Virus record (IMG/VR): IMGVR_UViG_3300047560_000914
Coordinates: 1-36,460 of that record
DNA from: a virus
Direction: 5' to 3' (one strand)
DNA length: 36,460 nt
Shown: positions 3,355-36,297 of the stretch, piece after piece
Numbering within the stretch: position 1 is the first letter of the stretch
How the letters are laid out: the number at the start of each line of letters is the position of its first letter
Position numbers and translations under genes: made by a program
The notes under the pieces: model-generated
Databases searched by the model: none
Seen by the model: only the letters and a program-made list of their open reading frames with translations
Told to the model about the DNA's origin: nothing

Positions 3355-4515
3355 TTAGATGCCCAAATCATACATTTTACTTGTCATTGCTTTGAACCCA
3401 CTAGCTATGTTACTTGGATCTCTTTTCCAAGCATCTGGCCAGCTGCGCCACATTTCTTCTAAACCAACTCTCCACGAATACTTTGCAGGATCATCATCGG
3501 GTAACTTGAAGAACCATTCATCACGCGGTGTAAAAAATACACTGGGCGCTTTTACTTGGAACGGCGCACGTACCCACCATGGGTAAATCAATTCGTGTAC
3601 TTTAGACATAGTTAGCTGTCTTGTCAAGCCCCCATTTTCAAATTTTACTAAACCATGCGGTTCACCAGTTGCATCAGGGTGCCCGGCATGTAGTGTTTTA
3701 ATGAAATTTTTAATAATGTGCCCTTGTTTGATAGCAATCAACGGCGCATCCGGACTCCAGTAAAACAACTCATCAAACTCCCAGGGCCTGTTTTCCATTT
3801 GTTGATAAGGGCTGTGAGCCGTGTCAACAAAGTCAACAAAGTAAAAATAGTAATGGTCTTTAACTTGATGCATCCTAGGTTTGTCAATGCCCTGAATAAA
3901 CCCAACTTTCTTCCCAGTATCAAACATGTTAGTCCACTCTGGTACCGTAAGTTTAATGTCGTTCTTAGATGCATTGTTCGGGTTCATGTACCCATTCATG
4001 CGGTACCCCCAATTGAACTTTGTGTCTTCCTTGCTAAAGTAATCCATTACTAGCTTACTAACATCGATTACACGGTGCTTTAGGTTTGGGTTCTTCTCGC
4101 GGGCTTTTTCGATCAGCGGCATAGCAACGTGGAAGATTTCCCCGTTCATAAAACTTGTGCGATCCTTGGTTGCTTCGTAGTTTACATAGCTAACTACTTC
4201 ATCTAAATGTATGTCGTTTTCTATAAAACTATGAAAAATGTTTAAACTGTCTGCGCCACCGCTGAGCCAAAGTACCAGGTAATCGTATTTCTCACGTAAC
4301 TGTTGCGCCCTGCGTTTGTATAGTTCGGTAATGCTTTCTTGTGGTTCAGTTTTCCAATCAAGCGCACTATATGCATCTTCGTTAAAATTCCAACGAAGTG
4401 GCAAGCCTGTACGTTGATGCTCGTAAATTGTTTCTAGCTTGCTATAAGATCTAAAGTTACCGCATTGATAAAAACCAAACTGATCCTGCCTACTAGATAG
4501 AATTAAAGATTCCAT
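3355..4515 (-). CDS. PP-loop ATPase-like protein, paralogue C
   Basis: 386 aa. The N-terminal half carries a PP-loop pyrophosphatase motif, SGGADS at 85-90, after a beta strand (YLVLWL), as in asparagine synthetase, QueC and other N-type ATP pyrophosphatases that adenylate a substrate. Other blocks shared with the two upstream paralogues are WNFN (42-45), LDWKTEP (52-58), the ELYKRRAQQLREKYD helix, GIDKPR, ELFYWSPD and the C-terminal YDLG. There is no glutaminase domain, so it is not a complete asparagine synthetase. The ATG overlaps the previous stop as TAATG, with AGGA upstream, implying translational coupling. It is last of three tandem copies. The substrate is unknown. Confidence 0.8.
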   Translation of the reverse strand: MESLILSSRQDQFGFYQCGNFRSYSKLETIYEHQRTGLPLRWNFNEDAYSALDWKTEPQESITELYKRRAQQLREKYDYLVLWLSGGADSLNIFHSFIENDIHLDEVVSYVNYEATKDRTSFMNGEIFHVAMPLIEKAREKNPNLKHRVIDVSKLVMDYFSKEDTKFNWGYRMNGYMNPNNASKNDIKLTVPEWTNMFDTGKKVGFIQGIDKPRMHQVKDHYYFYFVDFVDTAHSPYQQMENRPWEFDELFYWSPDAPLIAIKQGHIIKNFIKTLHAGHPDATGEPHGLVKFENGGLTRQLTMSKVHELIYPWWVRAPFQVKAPSVFFTPRDEWFFKLPDDDPAKYSWRVGLEEMWRSWPDAWKRDPSNIASGFKAMTSKMYDLGI

Positions 4516-5663
4516 TATGTTCCTAAATCGTAAATCTTGCTGCTCATTGGTACTAGCCCTTTACTAATATCTTTAGGGTCTTTCTTCCATGAGTCTGGCC
4601 ACTGGCTCCACAAATAATCCAATCCTGTGCGCCATGCGTAACGGGCAGCATCGTTTTCGGGTAATTTGAAAAACCATTCATCACGCTGTGTAAAGATTAA
4701 ACTTGGTGCTTTAGCTTGGTATGGCACAGGGTACCAACCCGGGTAAATCAAACGATGCATAGTGTCAAGTGGAACACCGTACTTTTGATTGTTAATAGTT
4801 ACTTGTACTGTGCTAGCTTTTGCATCAGTCCATAAGTCACTGGCATTTGCCAATTTAATATACTTCTTTAAGACGTGTGATTGTTTAATTGCAATCTTAG
4901 GACTATCAGGACTCCAGTAAAACAATTCATCAAAGTCCCAAGGACGGTTAAGCATCTGTGCTTGTGCTGATACTGCTTGGTCTACCATGTCAACAAATGA
5001 AAAGTAGTAGTGATCCTTAACTTGGTGGATGCGTGGCTTATCAATACCCTGTATAAAGACAACTTTCTTACCAGCGTCAATCATATCACGCCAATGTTTT
5101 TGAGTTAGCTTAATGTTAATTTTGGATGAGTTGTTAGGGTTTAAGTAACCATTCATATGGTACACCCAATCAAACTTACTTTCGCGTTGCGAATAGTTGT
5201 CCATAATTAAAGAGGACAAATCTAGTAATGTGTGCTTTAGCCAGGGCTGCTTTAGTTTAGCTTGCTCAATCTTAGGGATCGATACATTGTAGATCTCCCC
5301 ATTCAAAAAATTAAACTTATCCCCTGTTGCTTCATAATTAACCATGCCCACACACTCATCAATGCGTATGTCATTATTAATAAAACTGTTTAGCACATTA
5401 CTAGAGTCGGCGCCGCCGCTAAACCAAAGCACAACGTAATCATACTTGTCTCGTATTTGCTGTGCTCGTATACGGTAGAGCTCCTCCAGTGTTTCTGTGG
5501 GCTCTACTTTCCAGTCGTAGCTAGAAAAGACTGGCTCATTAAAATTCCATTTAACTCTACCGCCAGTTTTGTTTGCGTTAAGTGCTTCTAACTTGCTGTA
5601 GTACTTACAGTCATTGACTTCGTAGAAGCCAAATTGGTCCATGTTAAAATTTAAAATGTTCAT
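4515..5663 (-). CDS. PP-loop ATPase-like protein, paralogue B
   Basis: 382 aa, clearly the closest relative of the next gene downstream: both share the FSGGADS/LSGGADS loop (82-87 here), VNYEAT, GYxNPNN, GIDKPRxHQVKDHYYF, the RPWxFDELFYWSPD block and the DEWFFKLP block. The first ATG overlaps the end of the upstream paralogue by about 20 bases; an alternative ATG at 5642 (residue 8, MDQFGF) would give no overlap. Known PP-loop enzymes activate a carboxylate or carbonyl with ATP for amidation, thiolation or ring closure; which one applies here cannot be told. Confidence 0.8.
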   Translation of the reverse strand: MNILNFNMDQFGFYEVNDCKYYSKLEALNANKTGGRVKWNFNEPVFSSYDWKVEPTETLEELYRIRAQQIRDKYDYVVLWFSGGADSSNVLNSFINNDIRIDECVGMVNYEATGDKFNFLNGEIYNVSIPKIEQAKLKQPWLKHTLLDLSSLIMDNYSQRESKFDWVYHMNGYLNPNNSSKINIKLTQKHWRDMIDAGKKVVFIQGIDKPRIHQVKDHYYFSFVDMVDQAVSAQAQMLNRPWDFDELFYWSPDSPKIAIKQSHVLKKYIKLANASDLWTDAKASTVQVTINNQKYGVPLDTMHRLIYPGWYPVPYQAKAPSLIFTQRDEWFFKLPENDAARYAWRTGLDYLWSQWPDSWKKDPKDISKGLVPMSSKIYDLGT

Positions 5664-6828
5664 TGATACCAGTACTTATATATTCTGCTGGACCAAGATC
5701 ATAAAAGGGGCTCAAGAATCCAACAAACCCAACAGGTCTGCCTAGCTCAGTGTTGAAGTATTTGAGGTCAATGTTTTTAACTAGGTAAGCTAGACCAGCT
5801 TCCCACCGTCTGTACGCATCTGTGTCTTTAAAGTTAGTGTAGAACCAAAAGTCCATCTCGTTATAGAAACTGTTAGATGGTTTAGATGTTTGGAACGTTG
5901 CAGGATTGTAGTCCGGATAGATTAAAGGCTTTACGACTTGTTCATATGTTGTTCGTTGGGCAACACTATAATTAGGCCATCGTACAAGAAATTGCAGGAA
6001 CTGATTTTGCGGAAGACTAAACCAACTCTTGATGGTATGCGCTTGAGCGAGTACAAGTTCAGGTAAGTCGGGTGTCCAGTAAAAGTACTCGTTTGTGATG
6101 TTAGTGTATTCGTACACAACAGAATTAGAATGATTTGCTTGCAAATCCATAAAGTATGCATACCAGCGCCCGTCCTTAATACACATCTTAGGCTTGTCTA
6201 CTCCGTACAATACGCAAATACTTTTGCCGGTATCTGCATCCCTGCGATGGTCAATTAAACTAATATTGTCATGCTTAAACGCATGTCCAGGCTGAAAGTA
6301 GTCTTTTGTTTTTAATACCCACGACTCATCTGCTTCGCCCTTTAACATATCCTCACTATAGTCATGTATCGTAACTTTGGTCTTAGGATAGTTAGTAGAG
6401 ATCCATTGTAGCAATGGCTTGGCCGCAAACTCCCATTCGCTTAGTGTGTTCTCACATTTAGTATTAAACGGATCGTTGCTTACATTCTTCTCGCCTGTTT
6501 TGGGATAACGAAACACAACTTCATCTAAGTGGATGCCGTTGTGCAAGAAACTATAAATTGCAGTAGTACTGTCTCCCCCACCGCTAGCTTCTACACGAAT
6601 CCAATCATACTTGTCGCGCAGTTGTTGCGCTCTCATACGATACAGTTCTTTTAAAGGAATGTTAGGTGGCGTTGCCCAATCTAACTTAGCGTACACATCT
6701 CGATTAAAGTTCCACTCGGGAAAGATACCTGTGCGGGTAGCTTCTATTAAGGCTTCCACTTTGCCATAACAGACTTTGTCACCTAGTTTGTAGTATCCTA
6801 ACTTAGGATTGTTATCGAGTTTATACAT
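5644..6828 (-). CDS. PP-loop ATPase-like protein, paralogue A (divergent)
   Basis: 394 aa, first and most divergent of the three. It keeps the PP-loop as SGGGDS (82-87), the WNFN and LDWATPP blocks, ELYRMRAQQLRDKYD, GVDKPK, EYFYWTPDLPE, PLIYPDY and the terminal YDLG. Where the other two have VNYEAT it has an unrelated stretch, and the DEWFF block reads DFWFY. These differences suggest a distinct substrate or a heteromeric partner role. The ATG follows tRNA-Arg by only 8 bases and has no clear Shine-Dalgarno site, so the gene is probably co-transcribed with the tRNA. Confidence 0.78.
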   Translation of the reverse strand: MYKLDNNPKLGYYKLGDKVCYGKVEALIEATRTGIFPEWNFNRDVYAKLDWATPPNIPLKELYRMRAQQLRDKYDWIRVEASGGGDSTTAIYSFLHNGIHLDEVVFRYPKTGEKNVSNDPFNTKCENTLSEWEFAAKPLLQWISTNYPKTKVTIHDYSEDMLKGEADESWVLKTKDYFQPGHAFKHDNISLIDHRRDADTGKSICVLYGVDKPKMCIKDGRWYAYFMDLQANHSNSVVYEYTNITNEYFYWTPDLPELVLAQAHTIKSWFSLPQNQFLQFLVRWPNYSVAQRTTYEQVVKPLIYPDYNPATFQTSKPSNSFYNEMDFWFYTNFKDTDAYRRWEAGLAYLVKNIDLKYFNTELGRPVGFVGFLSPFYDLGPAEYISTGINEHFKF

Positions 6829-6914: not shown

Positions 6915-7289
6915 TTATCTAACCGCTTTTGCTCTAGCAACTAGCACATCTTCAATGTTACCCTTAATAATAACATTGGTGTACGAATCTGTCAAGCCAC
7001 TAGCGTGATCCGTTACCCTATTGTCAGGTTCGTGATACGTTCTAATACGTTCAGTGCCTGCTTGGTTACGATCTTTGTCTTTGTGAAAGTGTGCAACTAC
7101 ACGGTTACGGCAAACATTATACGCCGCAGCTTTGTTATCTTCGCGGCTACGACTGTTTGTTCCGTTGGCTTGTATTCCAGTGGGTTCGTGAATACAGCGG
7201 CAACAATTTTGATGCTTGTTGCGATGCTGTCCTCCCTTACCTGTACCGGAGAACCATTCAAAACGGAATTGATCTTCTGTGAGTTTCAT
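6915..7289 (-). CDS. Stand-alone class I release-factor (GGQ) domain protein
   Basis: About 124 aa consisting of the catalytic domain of bacterial RF1/RF2. The motif GTGKGGQHRNKHQN contains the universal GGQ (19-21) that triggers peptidyl-tRNA hydrolysis, and the end carries RIRTYHEPDNRVTDHASGLT, matching the RTYxxPxxRVTDHRxxxT signature of RF1/RF2. The stop-codon recognition domain is missing, as in the rescue factors ArfB and PrfH, but there is no clearly basic ArfB-type tail. Starts at 7307 (ATG) and 7313 (TTG) are also possible; none has a strong Shine-Dalgarno site. It sits between two tRNA genes, fitting a role in translation such as ribosome rescue or release during infection; this role is inferred. 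Confidence 0.82.
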   Translation of the reverse strand: MKLTEDQFRFEWFSGTGKGGQHRNKHQNCCRCIHEPTGIQANGTNSRSREDNKAAAYNVCRNRVVAHFHKDKDRNQAGTERIRTYHEPDNRVTDHASGLTDSYTNVIIKGNIEDVLVARAKAVR

Positions 7290-7322
7290 AACTGTATTTT
7301 GGTGCATTACCAAGATGCTTTG

Positions 7323-7394
7323 TGCGACCTACTGGATTCGAACCAGTCCCGTAAGAATTATGAGTTCTCGGCACTACCTCTATGCTAAAGTCGC
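7323..7394 (-). tRNA. tRNA-Met (CAT)
   Basis: 72-nt cloverleaf: acceptor GCGACTT pairs with AGGTCGC, discriminator A; unlike the other tRNAs here the 3' CCA is not encoded (CAA follows). Anticodon stem-loop GAGAA-CTCATAA-TTCTT gives CAT. T arm ACTGG-TTCGAAT-CCAGT is perfect. CAT could also be an Ile2 tRNA with lysidine. Its first 10 bases overlap the 3' end of the homing endonuclease gene. Confidence 0.88.
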
Positions 7395-7987
7395 TCAAAA
7401 CACCCTTGTCTAATTTGTTTTATTTCTACTTCTTTAATTATACGCAGATTACCTTTAAATTGCGACCACTTGGCTCGATCCCTGTCCGTTTCGTACCCTT
7501 TAACTTCAATGTACATGTCTAAACTTTCTATGTAGAAATCCGGAAAATATGTTCTTTCACCATTCCAAATATACTTGAATCCAGTTGTTGGTCTAATAGG
7601 ATTCAATCCGGCGTTTTTTGCCCATGTATAAAAATCTACTTCCCATTGCCCTTGAAACTTCATGCCGTCGAGCATGATTTGCTTTGTCCTCCCCCTATTA
7701 GATGAGGTATACGATTCTGGATTATTTTCAACTGCTTTTTTCATTGCATCTGACAGATTTTTACGCCTGCTATCATCCCACACTTGTTTCTTACTAGCCT
7801 CACTTAATTTCTTACGAGTTTCATCAGAACAAGTTGCACCGTAACTATATTGATTTGCTCCTTTTTTGCCAAGCATACCGTAAGATGGTTTTACTATAAC
7901 CCCCCCGGGGTTACTCTTACAACGTATTTCGTGCTGTTGGTTTGATCTAAGGCTTTTAGCCGGCTTGTTGCAAAATTTACAAAACAT
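7385..7987 (-). CDS. Free-standing homing endonuclease (zinc finger + NUMOD3 + PD-(D/E)xK-like)
   Basis: 200 aa. The N terminus has a zinc-finger pattern C3-C6-H19-C23. Residues 54-86 hold two NUMOD3-like helices (DETRKKLSEASKK and RRKNLSDAMKKAV), DNA-binding modules common in phage homing endonucleases. The C-terminal domain shows a restriction-type active site: E116, PD at 149-150, then EVK at 161-163. The start is ATG with TAGGAG five bases upstream. That ribosome-binding site is sequestered by an upstream complement and a late promoter lies in the loop between the two arms (see separate features), the arrangement described for T4 I-TevI. The gene ends inside tRNA-Met and begins beside a tRNA remnant, suggesting it inserted into the tRNA cluster. 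Confidence 0.82.
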   Translation of the reverse strand: MFCKFCNKPAKSLRSNQQHEIRCKSNPGGVIVKPSYGMLGKKGANQYSYGATCSDETRKKLSEASKKQVWDDSRRKNLSDAMKKAVENNPESYTSSNRGRTKQIMLDGMKFQGQWEVDFYTWAKNAGLNPIRPTTGFKYIWNGERTYFPDFYIESLDMYIEVKGYETDRDRAKWSQFKGNLRIIKEVEIKQIRQGCFERL

Positions 7988-7990
7988 AAT

Positions 7991-8021
7991 AACTCCTATA
8001 GTTATTTATGCCGTAGGAGTT
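7991..8021 (-). promoter_or_regulatory. RBS-sequestering hairpin of the homing endonuclease
   Basis: On the minus strand AACTCCTA (8021-8014) is perfectly complementary to TAGGAGTT (7998-7991), which contains the Shine-Dalgarno site. The 15-nt loop (8013-7999) contains the late promoter CATAAATA. Early or read-through mRNA would fold and hide the RBS; late mRNA starting inside the loop would lack the 5' arm and be translatable. Confidence 0.8.
8003..8010 (-). promoter_or_regulatory. Late promoter CATAAATA (homing endonuclease)
   Basis: Matches the T4-type late consensus TATAAATA at 7 of 8 positions. The expected start, about 6 nt downstream, falls just before the TAGGAG ribosome-binding site. 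Confidence 0.75.
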
Positions 8022-8059
8022 AAATGCTCTACCAATTAAATGCTAGGAGCCTTTTACAG

Positions 8060-18270: not shown

Positions 18271-18801
18271 ATGTCAGATACTTTACTACTCAACAGCGAT
18301 TACCGCCCAATTAGCATCTTGCCGCTAAGTGTTATCCCATGGCAACATGCTATTAAACTAATGTTCCTGAAAAAGGTTAACGTCATCGAGACTTACCCTG
18401 ATTGGATCATTCGTTCCGAGCGTCTAGCGATGAATGTACCAAGTGTCTGTGTAACTACAGATTACTTTAAGTACAAACGCAACGTCAAATTCAGCCGATA
18501 CAACATGTATCTGCGCGACTTATTTGAGTGCCAGTACTGTCATGAAGTATTTGACTTTGACGAACTAACCATTGACCACGTGCTTCCACGTGCCAAGGGC
18601 GGTAAGACTAACTGGGAAAACTGTGTAACTGCATGTAAGCCATGCAATCATGCAAAAGGTGACAAACTAATGAAGCCTAAGCACATGCCGTTTAAACCAG
18701 ACTACTACAGCCTAGTTAGCAAGTGGAAGGAGAACACACCGTTTAAGGTTAAGCACCCAAGCTGGAATCAGTACTTGGGACTTGAATTATTAGCGGCTTG
18801 A
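18271..18801 (+). CDS. HNH endonuclease beside terminase
   Basis: 176 aa. Zinc pairs C87-x2-C90 (CQYC) and C122-x2-C125 (CKPC) flank the HNH core LTIDHVLPRAKGGKTNWENC, with D102-H103 and N117 and H127. The N-terminal ~80 residues (MSDTLLLNSDYRPISILPL) match a class of phage and bacterial HNH proteins that begin with VLNxxYxPL. HNH nucleases next to terminase can assist concatemer cutting; alternatively it is a mobile endonuclease. It is on the opposite strand from its neighbours with its own host-type promoter, and its 3' end overlaps the convergent 153-aa gene by 34 bases. Confidence 0.88.
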   Translation: MSDTLLLNSDYRPISILPLSVIPWQHAIKLMFLKKVNVIETYPDWIIRSERLAMNVPSVCVTTDYFKYKRNVKFSRYNMYLRDLFECQYCHEVFDFDELTIDHVLPRAKGGKTNWENCVTACKPCNHAKGDKLMKPKHMPFKPDYYSLVSKWKENTPFKVKHPSWNQYLGLELLAA

Positions 18802-23427: not shown

Positions 23428-24369
23428 TTAAGCCTTTTGGATGCTTTCAACTAGTCCAGCTTGGAAGTAGTCAGCATACATGTCGTATACTTGACCAACA
23501 ACTTCTTGGAACTTAACTAGCTCTTTGTCGTCCATACGAACAACTTCAACACCTTGCGCTTCGCATTCAGCTAAAATGTTAGGAATGTCAGCAACGCTTG
23601 TTGTACGCTCAGTTAAGGCAGCTTCTGCGGCTGCTTGGCTGAATACGGCTTGATCGTGCATATCTAAACCAGCAAAGAAGTCTTTGTTAGTAATGATACT
23701 TGTTAAGAACAAGCTGTGAGCTGTGTCGTTAACTACATCAAAGCTCTTGTGTTGATCCAATGGGAAAACACGAACGTATGTAGATTCGCCAGCTTCAATG
23801 ATGCCTTGATCGGCTGCGGCATTCATTTCTTCTAGAGCAATACCGTCAAAAGGTTGTGCGCCTAGTAGTTTGAATGTGTCAACTGCAACTGGGCTACGGC
23901 TTGTACGAACCTTCTTGCCTTGCCATGCTTCGACTGTATCGGCACGGAAGTTAGCAGGAACAATACGGAAACCGCCTGAATATGTGTAGCTCATAGCGTG
24001 AATGTTGCTGTTGTTGCTTACTGTGTTTAGAAGACTACGACCAATGTCGCCATCTAGTACACGAGTTGCGTGATCGTGGTCCTTAAATAGGAACGGTAGA
24101 TCAAGAGCGTGTAGGTCCCTGTTGTAATCAGCCAACCATGTTGTATAGATGTGGCTCATTTCAATAGCACCAGAGTTAATTAGATCCATTAGATCATTCT
24201 TAGTAACACGGACACCATTGTTGTACTTGTTAGAATAGTCTGTTAGGCTTAGAACTTCGATGAAGTACTTGCCTTTAGCTTTAGCGTTAACTTTAGCTGC
24301 AAAGTCTTCAGCTACTTTCAAGAACAAACCGATAGGTTCGTGCGCGATTACCCACTTAATGTGTTTCAT
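23428..24369 (-). CDS. TRAP-type (DctP-like) solute-binding protein without signal peptide
   Basis: 313 aa. The middle carries the DctP-family hallmark GKKVRTSRSPVAVDTFKLLGAQPFDGI (Arg in RTSRSP binds the carboxylate ligand in this family), followed by NAAADQGIIEAGESTY. Known members are periplasmic receptors delivering C4-dicarboxylates, sialic acid or related acids to DctQM membrane proteins. This one begins MKHIKWVIAHEP with no hydrophobic leader, whereas the two neighbouring binding proteins have clear signal peptides. It therefore may be cytoplasmic and have been repurposed, or its true start was lost. No DctQ or DctM is in the window. AAGGAAA precedes the ATG. Confidence 0.85.
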   Translation of the reverse strand: MKHIKWVIAHEPIGLFLKVAEDFAAKVNAKAKGKYFIEVLSLTDYSNKYNNGVRVTKNDLMDLINSGAIEMSHIYTTWLADYNRDLHALDLPFLFKDHDHATRVLDGDIGRSLLNTVSNNSNIHAMSYTYSGGFRIVPANFRADTVEAWQGKKVRTSRSPVAVDTFKLLGAQPFDGIALEEMNAAADQGIIEAGESTYVRVFPLDQHKSFDVVNDTAHSLFLTSIITNKDFFAGLDMHDQAVFSQAAAEAALTERTTSVADIPNILAECEAQGVEVVRMDDKELVKFQEVVGQVYDMYADYFQAGLVESIQKA

Positions 24370-24527
24370 TTAAAATTTCCTTTTGCAAAAGATTTTTATG
24401 TAATGCTTGTGGGAGTGCCCACTTACGGTTTTCGGCGTTATACGTGTATCACAGTAGTAAAGGGGTTTGTACTACCCCAAGCGTCGATTTTCATTTCCGA
24501 CGTCGGCATTGCACCGGCGTTGCAATT
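24370..24527 (-). promoter_or_regulatory. Structured leader between two binding-protein genes
   Basis: 158 bases without an ORF. Minus strand pieces: GGGGT-AGTACAA-ACCCC (24478-24462) and, overlapping it, GTAGTA with TACTAC (24475-24470 with 24459-24454), which cannot form together; then GTGGG-CACT-CCCAC near 24415-24402 and TTTTGCAAAA just before the AAGGAAA ribosome site. It could be an attenuator or riboswitch-like leader, though I match no known class. Confidence 0.4.
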
Positions 24528-25460
24528 TTATTTAGTCCGAGCTTCGTCAATTTTGTCCTTATACTTGGTTGTCAAATAATGCATCTGACTAACTCGTTTG
24601 TTAAAGAACTCTTCTACTGACATCGGTGGGTTAAAGAATACTGGAGGGTTCATGTCAGAACTATCCAAAATCGCTTTCTCGCCAATTGACTCTTGTGCTG
24701 ACTCTAGGATCTTTGAAATTTCTTTTCGGCGTTGCTCGTTCATTGCTTTATTTGCAACTGTAGAAATAAAAACGCTAGGGACGTTAAACCCTTGCTCTGC
24801 TAAAGTTTTTACGTTTGGCATTGTACGATTTCGTTTAGAGCAATCAATTCCCAATACTTGTAATTTAGGATTTTTGTCTTTAAACATTTGGTAACTTGCT
24901 ACACGCTCAAGTACCATGTTAGGCCCGTTGTTGCCCACCATTGCTACTAACCCATCAAAGTTTGATTTGTAAACAACATACCTAAGTTTGAACTTGTATT
25001 TTTCACTTAGGGCAATTGCTACCATGTGCGCCACGTTGCCAAATCCTGTTCCGCCAACAACCAGCTCATCAATCCCACGCAGGCTATCTGTACCTAGTTT
25101 AGTGTCACCAACGTTAGTGATAACTGCCCAGCAAGCATCCCCTTGGGTTGACACCGGTATGTAATCCGCTTCGTTAATGTAGCCTTGTTTGGCATTTTCA
25201 ACAAATGCTGCTGCAACAGTGGATAAGCGATTTGATGGGCTAGCATCCATTGCTTTAAGTGCAAGTACGCCATTGGCACCTGGCTTAAACTCAGGCACAA
25301 ACTCGTACTTAGTTTGCATTTTATTAGCATTTTCTAGAGTACGCAAATACACTGAGGTGTTAGACTGTGTTGGCGACGAGCCAATCTGAACAGTAATAAG
25401 CTCTTTGGCGCTAACCAAAGAGCTCACTAATACTAACATTGTTGCTAGTATATGTTTCAT
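24528..25460 (-). CDS. TctC/Bug-family solute-binding protein
   Basis: 310 aa. A Sec signal peptide (MKHILATMLVLVSSLVSA, cleavage after residue 18) directs it to the periplasm. The family signatures are KPGANGVLALKAM and GGTGFGNVAHMVAIAL, and the C terminus ends with the usual helix. TctC/Bug proteins bind carboxylates such as citrate, tricarballylate or amino acids for tripartite tricarboxylate transporters. No TctA/B gene is present here, so it would supply a host transporter or scavenge solutes. Translation is coupled to the upstream paralogue (1 base between stop and ATG). Confidence 0.88.
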   Translation of the reverse strand: MKHILATMLVLVSSLVSAKELITVQIGSSPTQSNTSVYLRTLENANKMQTKYEFVPEFKPGANGVLALKAMDASPSNRLSTVAAAFVENAKQGYINEADYIPVSTQGDACWAVITNVGDTKLGTDSLRGIDELVVGGTGFGNVAHMVAIALSEKYKFKLRYVVYKSNFDGLVAMVGNNGPNMVLERVASYQMFKDKNPKLQVLGIDCSKRNRTMPNVKTLAEQGFNVPSVFISTVANKAMNEQRRKEISKILESAQESIGEKAILDSSDMNPPVFFNPPMSVEEFFNKRVSQMHYLTTKYKDKIDEARTK

Positions 25461-25461
25461 G

Positions 25462-26367
25462 TTAGTTTACCTTAACTTGGCTTGCAAGCTTTTTCCAGTA
25501 GTTAGTATGGAACTCAAAGAACTTGTCTAGCCCAGTAACTGGAACCGACTGTGGCTCACAGTAATCAACTGCGTATGCTGCACGTACTGATTCAGTCTTT
25601 GCTGCTTTAGCTAAGATTGCATGAATTTCTTTACGCTGGTCTTCGCTTACTGTTGTTGGGAGTAACATATGGTGGCCAACATTCATGTCAGCAAAGCTCT
25701 TGTCAAATCCTTGTTTAACTAGTGGCGTGTAACCGTTAATAACTTTAGTACCAGTAATACCAAGAACTGTTACTTTACGGTCACTGTTAGCATTTTCCTT
25801 GCTCCATTGTTCTGCTTCAGAGATAAAGCCAATGTGCAAGTCTGTTTGACCCGATACCATGCTTAACATAGAATCGTTTGTAGACTTAAACGGAACAATG
25901 TTTAACTGTGGATATTTCTTTTGCAATTCAATTGCAGCCAAGTGAGTAGTAACACCCAAACCACTAATACCAACGCTTGCATTTGCAGGAACGTCTTTAA
26001 CTGACTTGTACTTGGTACTTGTTACAGCCATTGGTGCCATACAGTGAACATACTGTTCTTTGAATTTGCTTAGATCATAGCTTTCATTTGGGTACACAAC
26101 CGGACGAACAAAGAACGCTGTACTGTGTGCTAAAATGCTGTTTGGGGTAGCAAGTACGTGATTGGATGCAATAGCACCACCTGCGCCTGGCTTTGTGTCA
26201 AATACAAAATTGTACTTGTCTTGAATCTTGTTTGCTTCGTTTGCAATAGTACGATGATAATTAGCTACCGAGTCGCCCGGTCCCCAAGCATAAAAGATTG
26301 TAATATTTTCTTTGGCTGTTGCAGCCAAAGCGAATGTAGCCATAAGAATGGCAATAAGTTTCTTCAT
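25462..26367 (-). CDS. TctC/Bug-family solute-binding protein
   Basis: About 301 aa. Signal peptide MKKLIAILMATFALAATA then KENITI. Bug signatures include DTKPGAGGAIASNHVL near 57-73 and VGISGLGVTTHLAAIEL in the ligand loop. It is only distantly similar to the next gene, so they are not a recent duplication. Start chosen at 26367, which has GGAGATTCTC upstream; the TTG at 26379 lies inside that Shine-Dalgarno region. First gene of the binding-protein cassette, following the gp4 terminator. Confidence 0.88.
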   Translation of the reverse strand: MKKLIAILMATFALAATAKENITIFYAWGPGDSVANYHRTIANEANKIQDKYNFVFDTKPGAGGAIASNHVLATPNSILAHSTAFFVRPVVYPNESYDLSKFKEQYVHCMAPMAVTSTKYKSVKDVPANASVGISGLGVTTHLAAIELQKKYPQLNIVPFKSTNDSMLSMVSGQTDLHIGFISEAEQWSKENANSDRKVTVLGITGTKVINGYTPLVKQGFDKSFADMNVGHHMLLPTTVSEDQRKEIHAILAKAAKTESVRAAYAVDYCEPQSVPVTGLDKFFEFHTNYWKKLASQVKVN

Positions 26368-26406
26368 GAGAATCTCCAAAAATAGTATTTTATACTTTTA
26401 GAAAAC

Positions 26407-32898: not shown

Positions 32899-32953
32899 CA
32901 TAAGTAGCGATTTTGGGCGTATAGTGTGCCCTTTGCAAAGGTTTGCTAGGACG

Positions 32954-33322
32954 ATGCCCCATAAATACTATATGACTCAACGACCTTTATGCCCAGTTTG
33001 CAATGATAAACCAGTAGCAGTGAACTATATCAAAGAAGATGTACCACACTATCGCAAGATGTGCGACAGTTGTATCCGTAAAGGAAAGAAATTAAAGCCA
33101 TTGCCACCATTATGGGTTAAGCGCGGCTATAGAAAAAAGCCACAATGTGACCAGTGTGGCTTTAAGTTTAAGTTTGTAGAGCAGAGCTTAGTTTATCACG
33201 TTGACGGTAACCTTAGTAACTGCGACCATAACAATTTAAAAACTGTTTGTCGCAATTGCTCAATTGAATTAAGCAAAAGTAGACTGCCGTGGAAGCCTGC
33301 TAAGGTTGTACCAGATTTTTAA
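32954..33322 (+). CDS. Zinc-ribbon / degenerate HNH protein
   Basis: About 122 aa on the plus strand. Two CxxC pairs (CPVC, CDSC) form one zinc ribbon, and CDQC with CRNC a second. The segment VYHVDGNLSNCDHNNLKTVC resembles the HNH finger (xHxDGNxxNNxxxNLxTVCxNC) but lacks the canonical second catalytic His, so nuclease activity is doubtful. ATG at 32954 follows CTAGGA closely; an ATG at 32972 lies 4 nt after the late box CATAAATA and is equally plausible. Its 3' end overlaps the convergent dNMP kinase gene by 23 bases. Confidence 0.72.
   Translation: MPHKYYMTQRPLCPVCNDKPVAVNYIKEDVPHYRKMCDSCIRKGKKLKPLPPLWVKRGYRKKPQCDQCGFKFKFVEQSLVYHVDGNLSNCDHNNLKTVCRNCSIELSKSRLPWKPAKVVPDF
32960..32967 (+). 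promoter_or_regulatory. Late promoter CATAAATA on the plus strand
   Basis: CATAAATA then CTAT then an in-frame ATG (32972) of the zinc protein; no Shine-Dalgarno site for that start. Confidence 0.6.
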
Positions 33323-35125: not shown

Positions 35126-36258
35126 TATCCAATTACCCAAGTCATTGGCATATTGCCTTCAACGTTGTCCTTTAGCTGTTGCTCAAGTGCAGCCATTTCT
35201 TCTTTGGCTTCAGACTTTAGCGCATCGCCGTTTAGTGTCGCGCCACCTTGTGGACCAGCAATCTGACTAAACTTACTACGGCCTTCACCAAGTGTAAACT
35301 TAGCAAACGAATACGCATACTCCTGCAACCAAGGGTAGGCATAAGGATCGTTTAAAAGCATTTGATCGGGCTTTGCATTGTAAACCCATAGCAATACACT
35401 TTCAGCAATTGAATCAACTGCTGTGCTGTATACTTGGGTGCGACTCAAATCAAATCCAGTAACAGAAGTAACCGTTAACTCATTGTAACTTGTTATGCTA
35501 ATTGTTAAGTGATCCCCACTTACTGCCTGGATGCTGTACATTCCGTTAAACTCGCCGCGTGGACAATTGTTAATAATCAACGTATCGCCCGGATTAACAA
35601 AATACGGCTGACTCAATGTAACTGTAATTGTACTACCAACTGCTGTGCCATTTGCTGTTAGAGTCTGCATCCTTGCAAAACTGTGTCCTGCATCGGGAAT
35701 CTTACGTGCAAGTGTAAGTTTCTTTGTAACTGGGTTAAAGGTGTACATAATGTGTCCACCAAACATAGTCATAGCTAGCTTTTGATAGCTAGCAAACAAT
35801 TCGTAGTTAGTAAGACCACCAACACGCCCTGCAACTAACATGTATGTGTTTAAGTATCCGCTTGCAAACGGTTCAAATTGGCTTGCTGTTGTGCCTGTAA
35901 CACTACCAATACCACGACGAAACACTTGACGCACTGTCATAATCTCTCTAGGGAGAATGTACTCTTGTGTTTCTGGCAGTAAGTCCAAGAACGCATAGCT
36001 TTCTTCTACGGCGTTAGCACTACGTTGACGGTATTTAATTAGAGATTGCTTGATAGCCATCTCATAGTGTTCTTTTTCTAATTCAACATCAACTAGGCCA
36101 TCGCCTAAACGCATACGAATGTAATCTGTAATTTCAGCACGTTTTAAGTCTGCTGAATCGTACAGTGTAGAATCGTATGCAATTGGACCCGGGCCAGCCA
36201 AACTTTGTGTTTGTAAACTGCCTTGTCCTGTTAAACCTGTTTTGATAGTTACGCTCAT
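35125..36258 (-). CDS. 13: gp13-like neck protein
   Basis: 377 aa (T4 gp13 is 309). The N-terminal helical region (ADLKRAEITDYIRMRLGDG followed by ELEKEHYEMAIKQSLIKYRQRSAN) and the C-terminal PYAYPWLQEYAYSFAKFTLGEGRSKF and GPQGGATLNGDALKSEA segments are hallmarks of the T4-like neck protein family. A Thr/Val-rich beta insertion sits at about 195-270. Neck proteins close the head after packaging and prepare tail attachment. The leader is a long hairpin with the late promoter at its tip. Confidence 0.8.
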   Translation of the reverse strand: MSVTIKTGLTGQGSLQTQSLAGPGPIAYDSTLYDSADLKRAEITDYIRMRLGDGLVDVELEKEHYEMAIKQSLIKYRQRSANAVEESYAFLDLLPETQEYILPREIMTVRQVFRRGIGSVTGTTASQFEPFASGYLNTYMLVAGRVGGLTNYELFASYQKLAMTMFGGHIMYTFNPVTKKLTLARKIPDAGHSFARMQTLTANGTAVGSTITVTLSQPYFVNPGDTLIINNCPRGEFNGMYSIQAVSGDHLTISITSYNELTVTSVTGFDLSRTQVYSTAVDSIAESVLLWVYNAKPDQMLLNDPYAYPWLQEYAYSFAKFTLGEGRSKFSQIAGPQGGATLNGDALKSEAKEEMAALEQQLKDNVEGNMPMTWVIG

Positions 36259-36263
36259 GAGAA

Positions 36264-36297
36264 ATCCCGTTTACAGTATTTAGTACTGTAACGGGAT
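36264..36297 (-). promoter_or_regulatory. gp13 leader hairpin with late promoter at its apex
   Basis: Minus strand: a 14-bp stem pairs ATCCCGTTACAGTA (36297-36284) with TACTGTAAACGGGAT (36278-36264), with one bulged A. The loop CTAAA belongs to the late box ACTAAATA (36284-36277). The 3' arm contains GGGA, the likely Shine-Dalgarno site six bases before the ATG, so longer transcripts would hide it. Confidence 0.65.

Follow-up and report, generated by a model that had tools for sequence, protein, structure and literature searches.

A homing endonuclease cassette splitting the anticodon of a tRNA(CAU) gene in a T4-like phage, with a candidate hairpin/late-promoter switch in its leader

The window, that is, the whole stretch of 36,460 nucleotides analysed here, is a metagenome fragment of a T4-like phage (it belongs to a virus record and encodes a T4-type terminase, UvsX and UvsY) that carries 14 tRNA genes, and no near-identical record was found in the phage collection searched. 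Its minus strand contains a free-standing homing endonuclease gene (HEG), and the explanation of this locus as a whole that we hold to be probable is that the HEG belongs to a tRNA-splitting cassette governed by a switch consisting of a hairpin over the ribosome binding site (RBS) and a late promoter. The leader sequence itself is best read as a timing control of the I-TevI/segB type. The endonuclease ORF (7987-7385, minus strand, 200 aa) lies directly 3' of the leader hairpin, and the features of the locus are:

8017..8051, minus strand: 5'-half remnant of the resident tRNA(CAU), which stops at C34 (...TTGGTAGAGCATTTAACTC); from the conservation profile and empty sites
8017-8036, minus strand: 20-bp block conserved in the family (0.7-1.4 bits vs. 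0.1-0.2 upstream), a putative homing half-site/operator
8014..8022, minus strand: 5' (anti-RBS) arm of the hairpin, TAACTCCTA, whose TAACTC portion is tRNA-derived; from sequence, folding, family stems and co-variation
8003..8010, minus strand: loop octamer CATAAATA, a candidate T4-type late promoter; from the motif scan, family leaders and placement test
7990..7998, minus strand: 3' arm TAGGAGTTA, which includes the Shine-Dalgarno sequence; from sequence, folding and predicted RBS exposure
7385..7987, minus strand: homing endonuclease ORF, 200 aa, with zinc finger, NUMOD3 and PD-(D/E)XK domains
7395..7409, minus strand: left arm of an inverted repeat, within the 3' end of the ORF, which lengthens the acceptor stem of the tRNA that follows
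7322..7394, minus strand: complete tRNA-Met(CAT) at the 3' end of the element, with a D-arm diverged from the target half-site
7309..7322, minus strand: right arm of the inverted repeat, CAAAGCATCTTGGT
7300..7305, minus strand: GCACCA, perhaps left over from the 3' end of the resident tRNA (6 nt, weak), by comparison with the empty-site relative L030

The minus strand from 8022 to 7985 reads TAACTCCTA CGGCATAAATAACTA TAGGAGTTA TT ATG. An initial annotation of this DNA had described the RBS as perfectly complementary to an upstream 8-mer, with a late-promoter motif in the intervening loop, and both statements are exact: AACTCCTA (8021-8014) is the precise reverse complement of the RBS-bearing TAGGAGTT (7998-7991), the pairing grows to 9 bp with T8022-A7990, and the 15-nt loop holds CATAAATA (8010-8003). 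The 75-nt leader folds with a predicted energy of -19.3 kcal/mol (z -3.2), a value equalled by one of 200 shuffles, vs. -1.3 kcal/mol for an RNA starting at 8001, which is nearly unstructured. In terms of probability, the RBS of the window leader is predicted to be unpaired at 0.00 in read-through RNA and at 0.67 in the late transcript. When only the upstream part was shuffled, an RBS-covering stem as good as the natural one appeared in 0.5% of the shuffles; it should be noted that a second CTCCTA at 8049-8044 could pair with the same RBS.

A hairpin in a tRNA operon might instead serve as a signal for RNA processing or attenuation, for instance as an RNase target or through folding of a tRNA 5' leader, and the tRNA context and the unusual extended acceptor stem of the downstream tRNA (z -4.6) would suit such a role. 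We regard this as very unlikely, as the leader hairpin has no terminator-like U tract and the features that are conserved are the RBS and the placement of the promoter.

The view that the octamer is a promoter does not rest on abundance: an enrichment of ATAAATA across the window was rejected (9 occurrences vs. 9.5 expected), and only its placement before genes is enriched. In the case of [AC]TAAATA, 7 of the 13 sites lie at most 45 nt upstream of a gene start, vs. 0.3 expected (P=6e-9). Since these sites are tied to gene starts, the window phage likely uses T4-type late promoters, CATAAATA among them. The gap between the motif and AGGAG is only 5 nt in the window, so a start 6-7 nt past the motif would place the 5' end at or inside the RBS, and this short distance would make the exact late 5' end critical. 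Sigma-70 promoters and terminators near the endonuclease gene occur at chance level, for which reason a TTGGCA-16-TATAAT match at 8162-8135 was not taken as evidence.

Relatives of the endonuclease were collected from IMG/VR and from named phages, which include Acinetobacter Lazarusvirus, Aeromonas phages, Dhakavirus IME341, Kuttervirus PhaxI and Vibrio phage Kuja; in the bacterial genome collection, members of the family were not found. The late motif, scored as N[AC]TAAATA 12-40 nt before the start codon, is present in 25 of 31 family leaders vs. 23 of 152 other genes from the same loci (P=2e-12), and a strong RBS-covering stem with the motif in its loop or 5' arm in 13 of 31 vs. 1 of 152 (P=1e-10); these P values overstate independence, because the loci are related by descent. 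The late promoter motif stands immediately upstream of the endonuclease ORF both in the window and in most of the family leaders. The arms co-vary: 124 of 182 paired cells are complementary, vs. 111 +/- 4.6 when arms were swapped among loci (26 of 5000 swaps reach 124), and the true register gives 68% pairing vs. 40-46% in slid registers. Pairing is kept in stems as different as GTCTCTTAGAT/ATCTAGGAGAC, TTCTCCATGAAT/ATTCATGGAGAA and TTCCATTATAAA/TTTATAATGGAA. The median predicted probability that the RBS is unpaired is 0.02 for read-through and 0.48 for late RNA in the family (P=0.003); for T4 segB, used as a positive control, the probability goes from 0.00 to 0.20. The predicted fold and the co-variation together point to sequestration of the RBS by the upstream arm in read-through RNA.

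Not every member conforms. Leaders of L008, L009 and L125 are without the combination of hairpin and late promoter, those of L006, L014, L117 and L121 have weak stems, and in the folding test RBS exposure was not raised in L006, L014, L016 and L120. In L015, L018, L021 and L119 the late motif lies 12-15 nt before the start codon and there is no sequestering stem, which suggests that their late mRNAs may be leaderless. Among the background genes, the sole one combining motif and stem as the HEG leaders do is gene 36258-35125 of the window, with CTAAATA 19 nt before its start (36258-36283, minus strand) and a strong stem at the RBS region (score 22.5).

The pairing could be a by-product without a regulatory role, if the likeness between the CUC of the tRNA(CAU) anticodon region and an anti-Shine-Dalgarno sequence is a mere coincidence. 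The CTC at the core of the 5' arm does come from the tRNA, so that CTC/GAG alone is no evidence of selection. This account is nevertheless quite unlikely, given that the stems reach well past the CTC with co-varying pairs, that equivalent stems are re-formed at other tRNA targets or in shifted registers (L022, L023, L024, L025 and L026), and that the late motif is found in the loop or 5' arm much more often than in the background genes. To judge from the relatives, the features of the leader switch are under selection. The I-TevI-like switch proposed by the initial annotation, with a late promoter within an RBS hairpin, recurs across the family with co-varying arms; the annotation had overlooked that the upstream arm originates from a tRNA half and that the cassette carries a replacement tRNA.

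The sequence that precedes the hairpin corresponds to the 5' half of a tRNA with a CAU anticodon and ends at C34. Alignment of 22 loci reveals a conserved block of about 20 nt (GGTTAGAGCA....ACTC) with 0.7-1.4 bits per position, vs. 0.1-0.2 bits further upstream. The insertion point is visible in close relatives: in the Acinetobacter phage Apostate, an insertion of 666 bp separates C34 from A35, which adjoin at the empty site of Konradin, the flanks being identical at 146/151 and 182/183 positions and the break falling at GTGGACTC|ATAATCC. Likewise, SPHG3 and BSP101 have an intact tRNA of which Kuttervirus PhaxI retains the 5' half (left flanks identical at 253/257 and 220/223 positions), and PhaxI has a different complete tRNA-Met downstream. 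At the corresponding position of L030, a relative of the window without the HEG, the tRNA(CAU) is intact. Other tRNAs are involved as well; in IME341 both the remnant and the regenerated gene are tRNA-Arg(TCT), the anticodon loop of the latter containing the ORF stop, and the family member of L022 adjoins a tRNA-Ile(GAT).

It could be argued that two tRNA genes simply flank the gene and that the upstream tRNA-like sequence belongs to a truncated neighbour, there by coincidence, and not to the target, since the window retains only D-arm and anticodon-arm sequence there and L030 has an additional 521-aa ORF at the site. The clean pairs of filled and empty sites in named phages, with the break within the anticodon, and the same C34-ending remnant in 22 aligned loci leave this idea with hardly any probability. 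Based on these comparisons, insertion in this family falls between C34 and A35 of the anticodon, and the upstream hairpin arm is what is left of a tRNA that was split there.

In close relatives (Apostate/Konradin), the element is either there or missing at a single precise site, with no surrounding intron. A HEG encoded by a mobile group I intron, of the I-Ssp6803I type, was rejected for the window, as RF00028 had no match in the window, nor around the ORF at E<=10. Group I introns do occur next to other members: in L010-L012 one interrupts the anticodon loop, between CAT and AA, of the tRNA that follows the HEG directly (L010:2324-2596 matches RF00028 with 74.9 bits; likewise L011 and L012). 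Further RF00028 introns near family members are found at L020:2577-2772 and L018:3990-4184. A separate observation concerns the tRNA-Met/tRNA-Arg junction, at which T4 segB (GIY-YIG) and the PD-(D/E)XK HEG of IME341/HEMP5 occupy the same position (L115:303-1160 vs. L025 and L114), which suggests mutual replacement of two unrelated endonucleases.

At its 3' end, the element of the window has a carried tRNA-Met (7394-7322) that contains the ORF stop codon (7385-7387), and most family loci have a complete tRNA(CAT) at the 3' end of the gene with the ORF stop inside or beside it. In the window, the extended acceptor stem joins the carried tRNA and the 3' end of the ORF in one extended helix (z -4.6). 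Of the 20 positions of the consensus target half-site, carried tRNAs agree with 12.3 on average (best 16); the tRNAs of empty sites match the half-site at 19 (Konradin), 18 (SPHG3/BSP101) and 17 (L030) of 20. Lazarus, a close relative of Konradin, has 13 of 20, so resident tRNAs vary too. The values fit, and do not prove, a carried tRNA that would resist the enzyme.

Several neighbouring genes deserve mention in their own right. A release-factor-like gene with an RF-1 domain (window 6915-7286, minus strand) adjoins the tRNA/HEG site, and an annotated gene of this kind lies near the tRNA/HEG site of an Acinetobacter Lazarusvirus (L023:3786-4022). On the phage contig L009, a permuted tmRNA gene (3848-4134; RF04321, 78.7 bits) comes right after the HEG-associated tRNA-Met. 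Judged by eye, window 3355-6828 (minus strand) encodes three consecutive related proteins of about 385 aa whose SGG(A/G)DS motifs are reminiscent of PP-loop ATPases, and three ORFs at 23428-26379 (minus strand) resemble periplasmic solute-binding proteins of tripartite or TRAP transporters, an unusual content for a phage amid structural genes. Opposite-strand ORFs at 18271-18801 and 32924-33322 (both plus strand) resemble, again by eye, fragments of HNH-type nucleases and are possible mobile genes.

The endonuclease contains a CxxC...H...C zinc finger (residues 3-23), a NUMOD3 domain (41-62) and a T7-endonuclease-I-like PD-(D/E)XK domain (about residues 100-200). The 30 members have in common the CxxC...H zinc finger and E116...PD150...E161xK163, and part of them have NUMOD3; E116, D150 and K163 are invariant, and E161 is present in at least 90%. 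With a family profile, T7 endonuclease I was matched over residues 112-180 (E=4.6e-5), and 7 of the 30 members match Pfam Phage_endo_I. AlphaFold2 structure prediction was run on the metagenome loci, and residues 100-200 of the model (mean pLDDT 84) fall near TnsA, I-Bth0305I and Vsr (Z about 7). The resemblance to I-Bth0305I (EDxHD/Vsr-like; Z 7.1) is one of fold, the motif here being PD-(D/E)xK. Foldseek returned no match to the PDB below E=0.01, and the fold assignment comes from a second structure comparison together with the T7 endonuclease I profile match. Based on these matches, the enzyme is a T7-endonuclease-I-like PD-(D/E)XK nuclease with a zinc finger and NUMOD3; the domain matches, the model and the profile agree with the domains previously read from the sequence, and the combination of a nuclease with modular DNA-binding domains is that of a free-standing homing endonuclease.

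These observations can be combined into the following mechanism. The free-standing cassette would sit in a tRNA(CAU) gene split between C34 and A35, leaving the resident 5' half upstream and carrying at the 3' end a complete and diverged tRNA-Met of its own; since a complete tRNA-Met is supplied, tRNA function would be kept. Read-through RNA from upstream early/middle genes (UvsX/UvsY-type, same strand) would include the tRNA half, whose ...TAACTC, together with three cassette bases, would pair with the RBS and block translation. Late RNA polymerase would start at CATAAATA in the loop and yield a transcript that lacks the 5' arm, so that the RBS would be free and translation restricted to mRNAs initiated late. 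The endonuclease would then be made, and could cleave intact tRNA genes, when replicating genomes are available for homing.

The tRNA half-site beside the promoter may have a further function. The operator of I-TevI is similar to the homing site of the enzyme and overlaps the late promoter of its gene (PMC2988022) and, by this analogy, the conserved half-site is probably an operator too, through which the enzyme would repress its own synthesis; a 20-bp half-site kept beside the promoter is as expected for an autorepressor. One may go further and suppose that transcriptional control is the main one, that is, that the endonuclease represses its late promoter at the 20-bp half-site operator, with the hairpin in a secondary role. 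The conservation of the half-site contrasts with the decay of the rest of the tRNA half, and the half-site abuts the late promoter much as the I-TevI operator overlaps its own (PMC2988022). Yet the arms co-vary, stems persist in members with different half-sites, and the half-site may persist because recombination ends in the conserved D-arm. We consider primacy of the operator unlikely, and operator function as such is compatible with the combined hairpin/late-promoter switch, the two not being exclusive.

Control by an RBS hairpin and a late promoter has been described for I-TevI, I-TevII, I-TevIII, T4 segB and Aeh1 mobE (PMC2988022, PMC3014915), and the switch is therefore not new in principle. 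As predicted for the window leader, the RBS of the three I-Tev genes is sequestered in read-through RNA, and their late transcripts lack the inhibitory arm. In I-TevI the promoter octamer itself forms the 5' arm, whereas the octamer of the window leader is in the loop and the 5' arm comes from a tRNA; moreover, I-TevI is a GIY-YIG enzyme of the td intron, and here there is no intron and a different nuclease. T4 segB is closer in being free-standing, in lying in a tRNA cluster, with a late motif and an RBS-sequestering hairpin, and in sharing the tRNA-Met/tRNA-Arg junction with the family relative in IME341 and HEMP5, but it encodes a GIY-YIG enzyme, has its promoter in the 5' arm, and the upstream tRNA half is absent in the T4 record examined. 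Aeh1 mobE, likewise a free-standing HEG with an RBS hairpin and late promoter (PMC2988022), differs in encoding an HNH nuclease and in being inserted in nrdA.

The initial annotation had also considered that the regulatory cassette was either convergent or borrowed. Borrowing was not supported: in local alignments, 245 of 500 shuffles matched I-TevI as well as the leader did, and 31 of 500 did so for segB, which is marginal. Common descent of the leader with I-TevI or segB found no support, as the resemblance is limited to the promoter and RBS and the promoter is placed differently. Convergence fits better than borrowing from I-TevI. The leader of Apostate (L023) is nearer to the T4 arrangement.

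With respect to the target, the description of an endonuclease that homes on the anticodon region of a tRNA(CAU) gene goes back to Bonocora and Shub (2001), as cited in PMC3984707. The collaborative homing of F-CphI and psbA introns in cyanophages offers another comparison, in that a free-standing HEG and a group I intron may have a target in common, cf. L010-L012; nuclease and target differ, and the likeness of L010-L012 is one of co-location only. The enzyme aimed at the tRNA(CAU) anticodon region is, we presume, the PD-(D/E)XK enzyme I-Ssp6803I. Compared by description, I-Ssp6803I is likewise a PD-(D/E)XK enzyme aimed at this region, but it is encoded by a group I intron in a cyanobacterial tRNA-fMet gene, whereas the enzyme described here is free-standing and combines a zinc finger and NUMOD3 with a T7-endonuclease-I-like domain. 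In the literature that we searched, with subscription papers mostly outside the search, we found neither an earlier intron-less HEG that splits tRNA anticodons nor a free-standing anticodon-splitting family that supplies its own tRNA. The occurrence of the late switch with a PD-(D/E)XK enzyme is a new instance.

A broader proposal, which we advance tentatively and at somewhat less than even chance, is that the endonuclease and a resistant tRNA define a cassette family in which the target half combines the functions of homing half-site, operator and anti-RBS arm. Insertion itself would complete the switch, and new target tRNAs would drive compensatory change in the RBS arm. In the mechanism set out above, the timing control is tied to the target, as the silencing arm is the very tRNA half that the element has split. 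This gives a simple account of how a selfish free-standing gene may enter a highly constrained anticodon with the tRNA kept and its regulation in place. It also provides a directly testable case of an enzyme that would avoid cutting its own replacement tRNA and, through L010-L012, of free-standing endonucleases that may share anticodon sites with group I introns.
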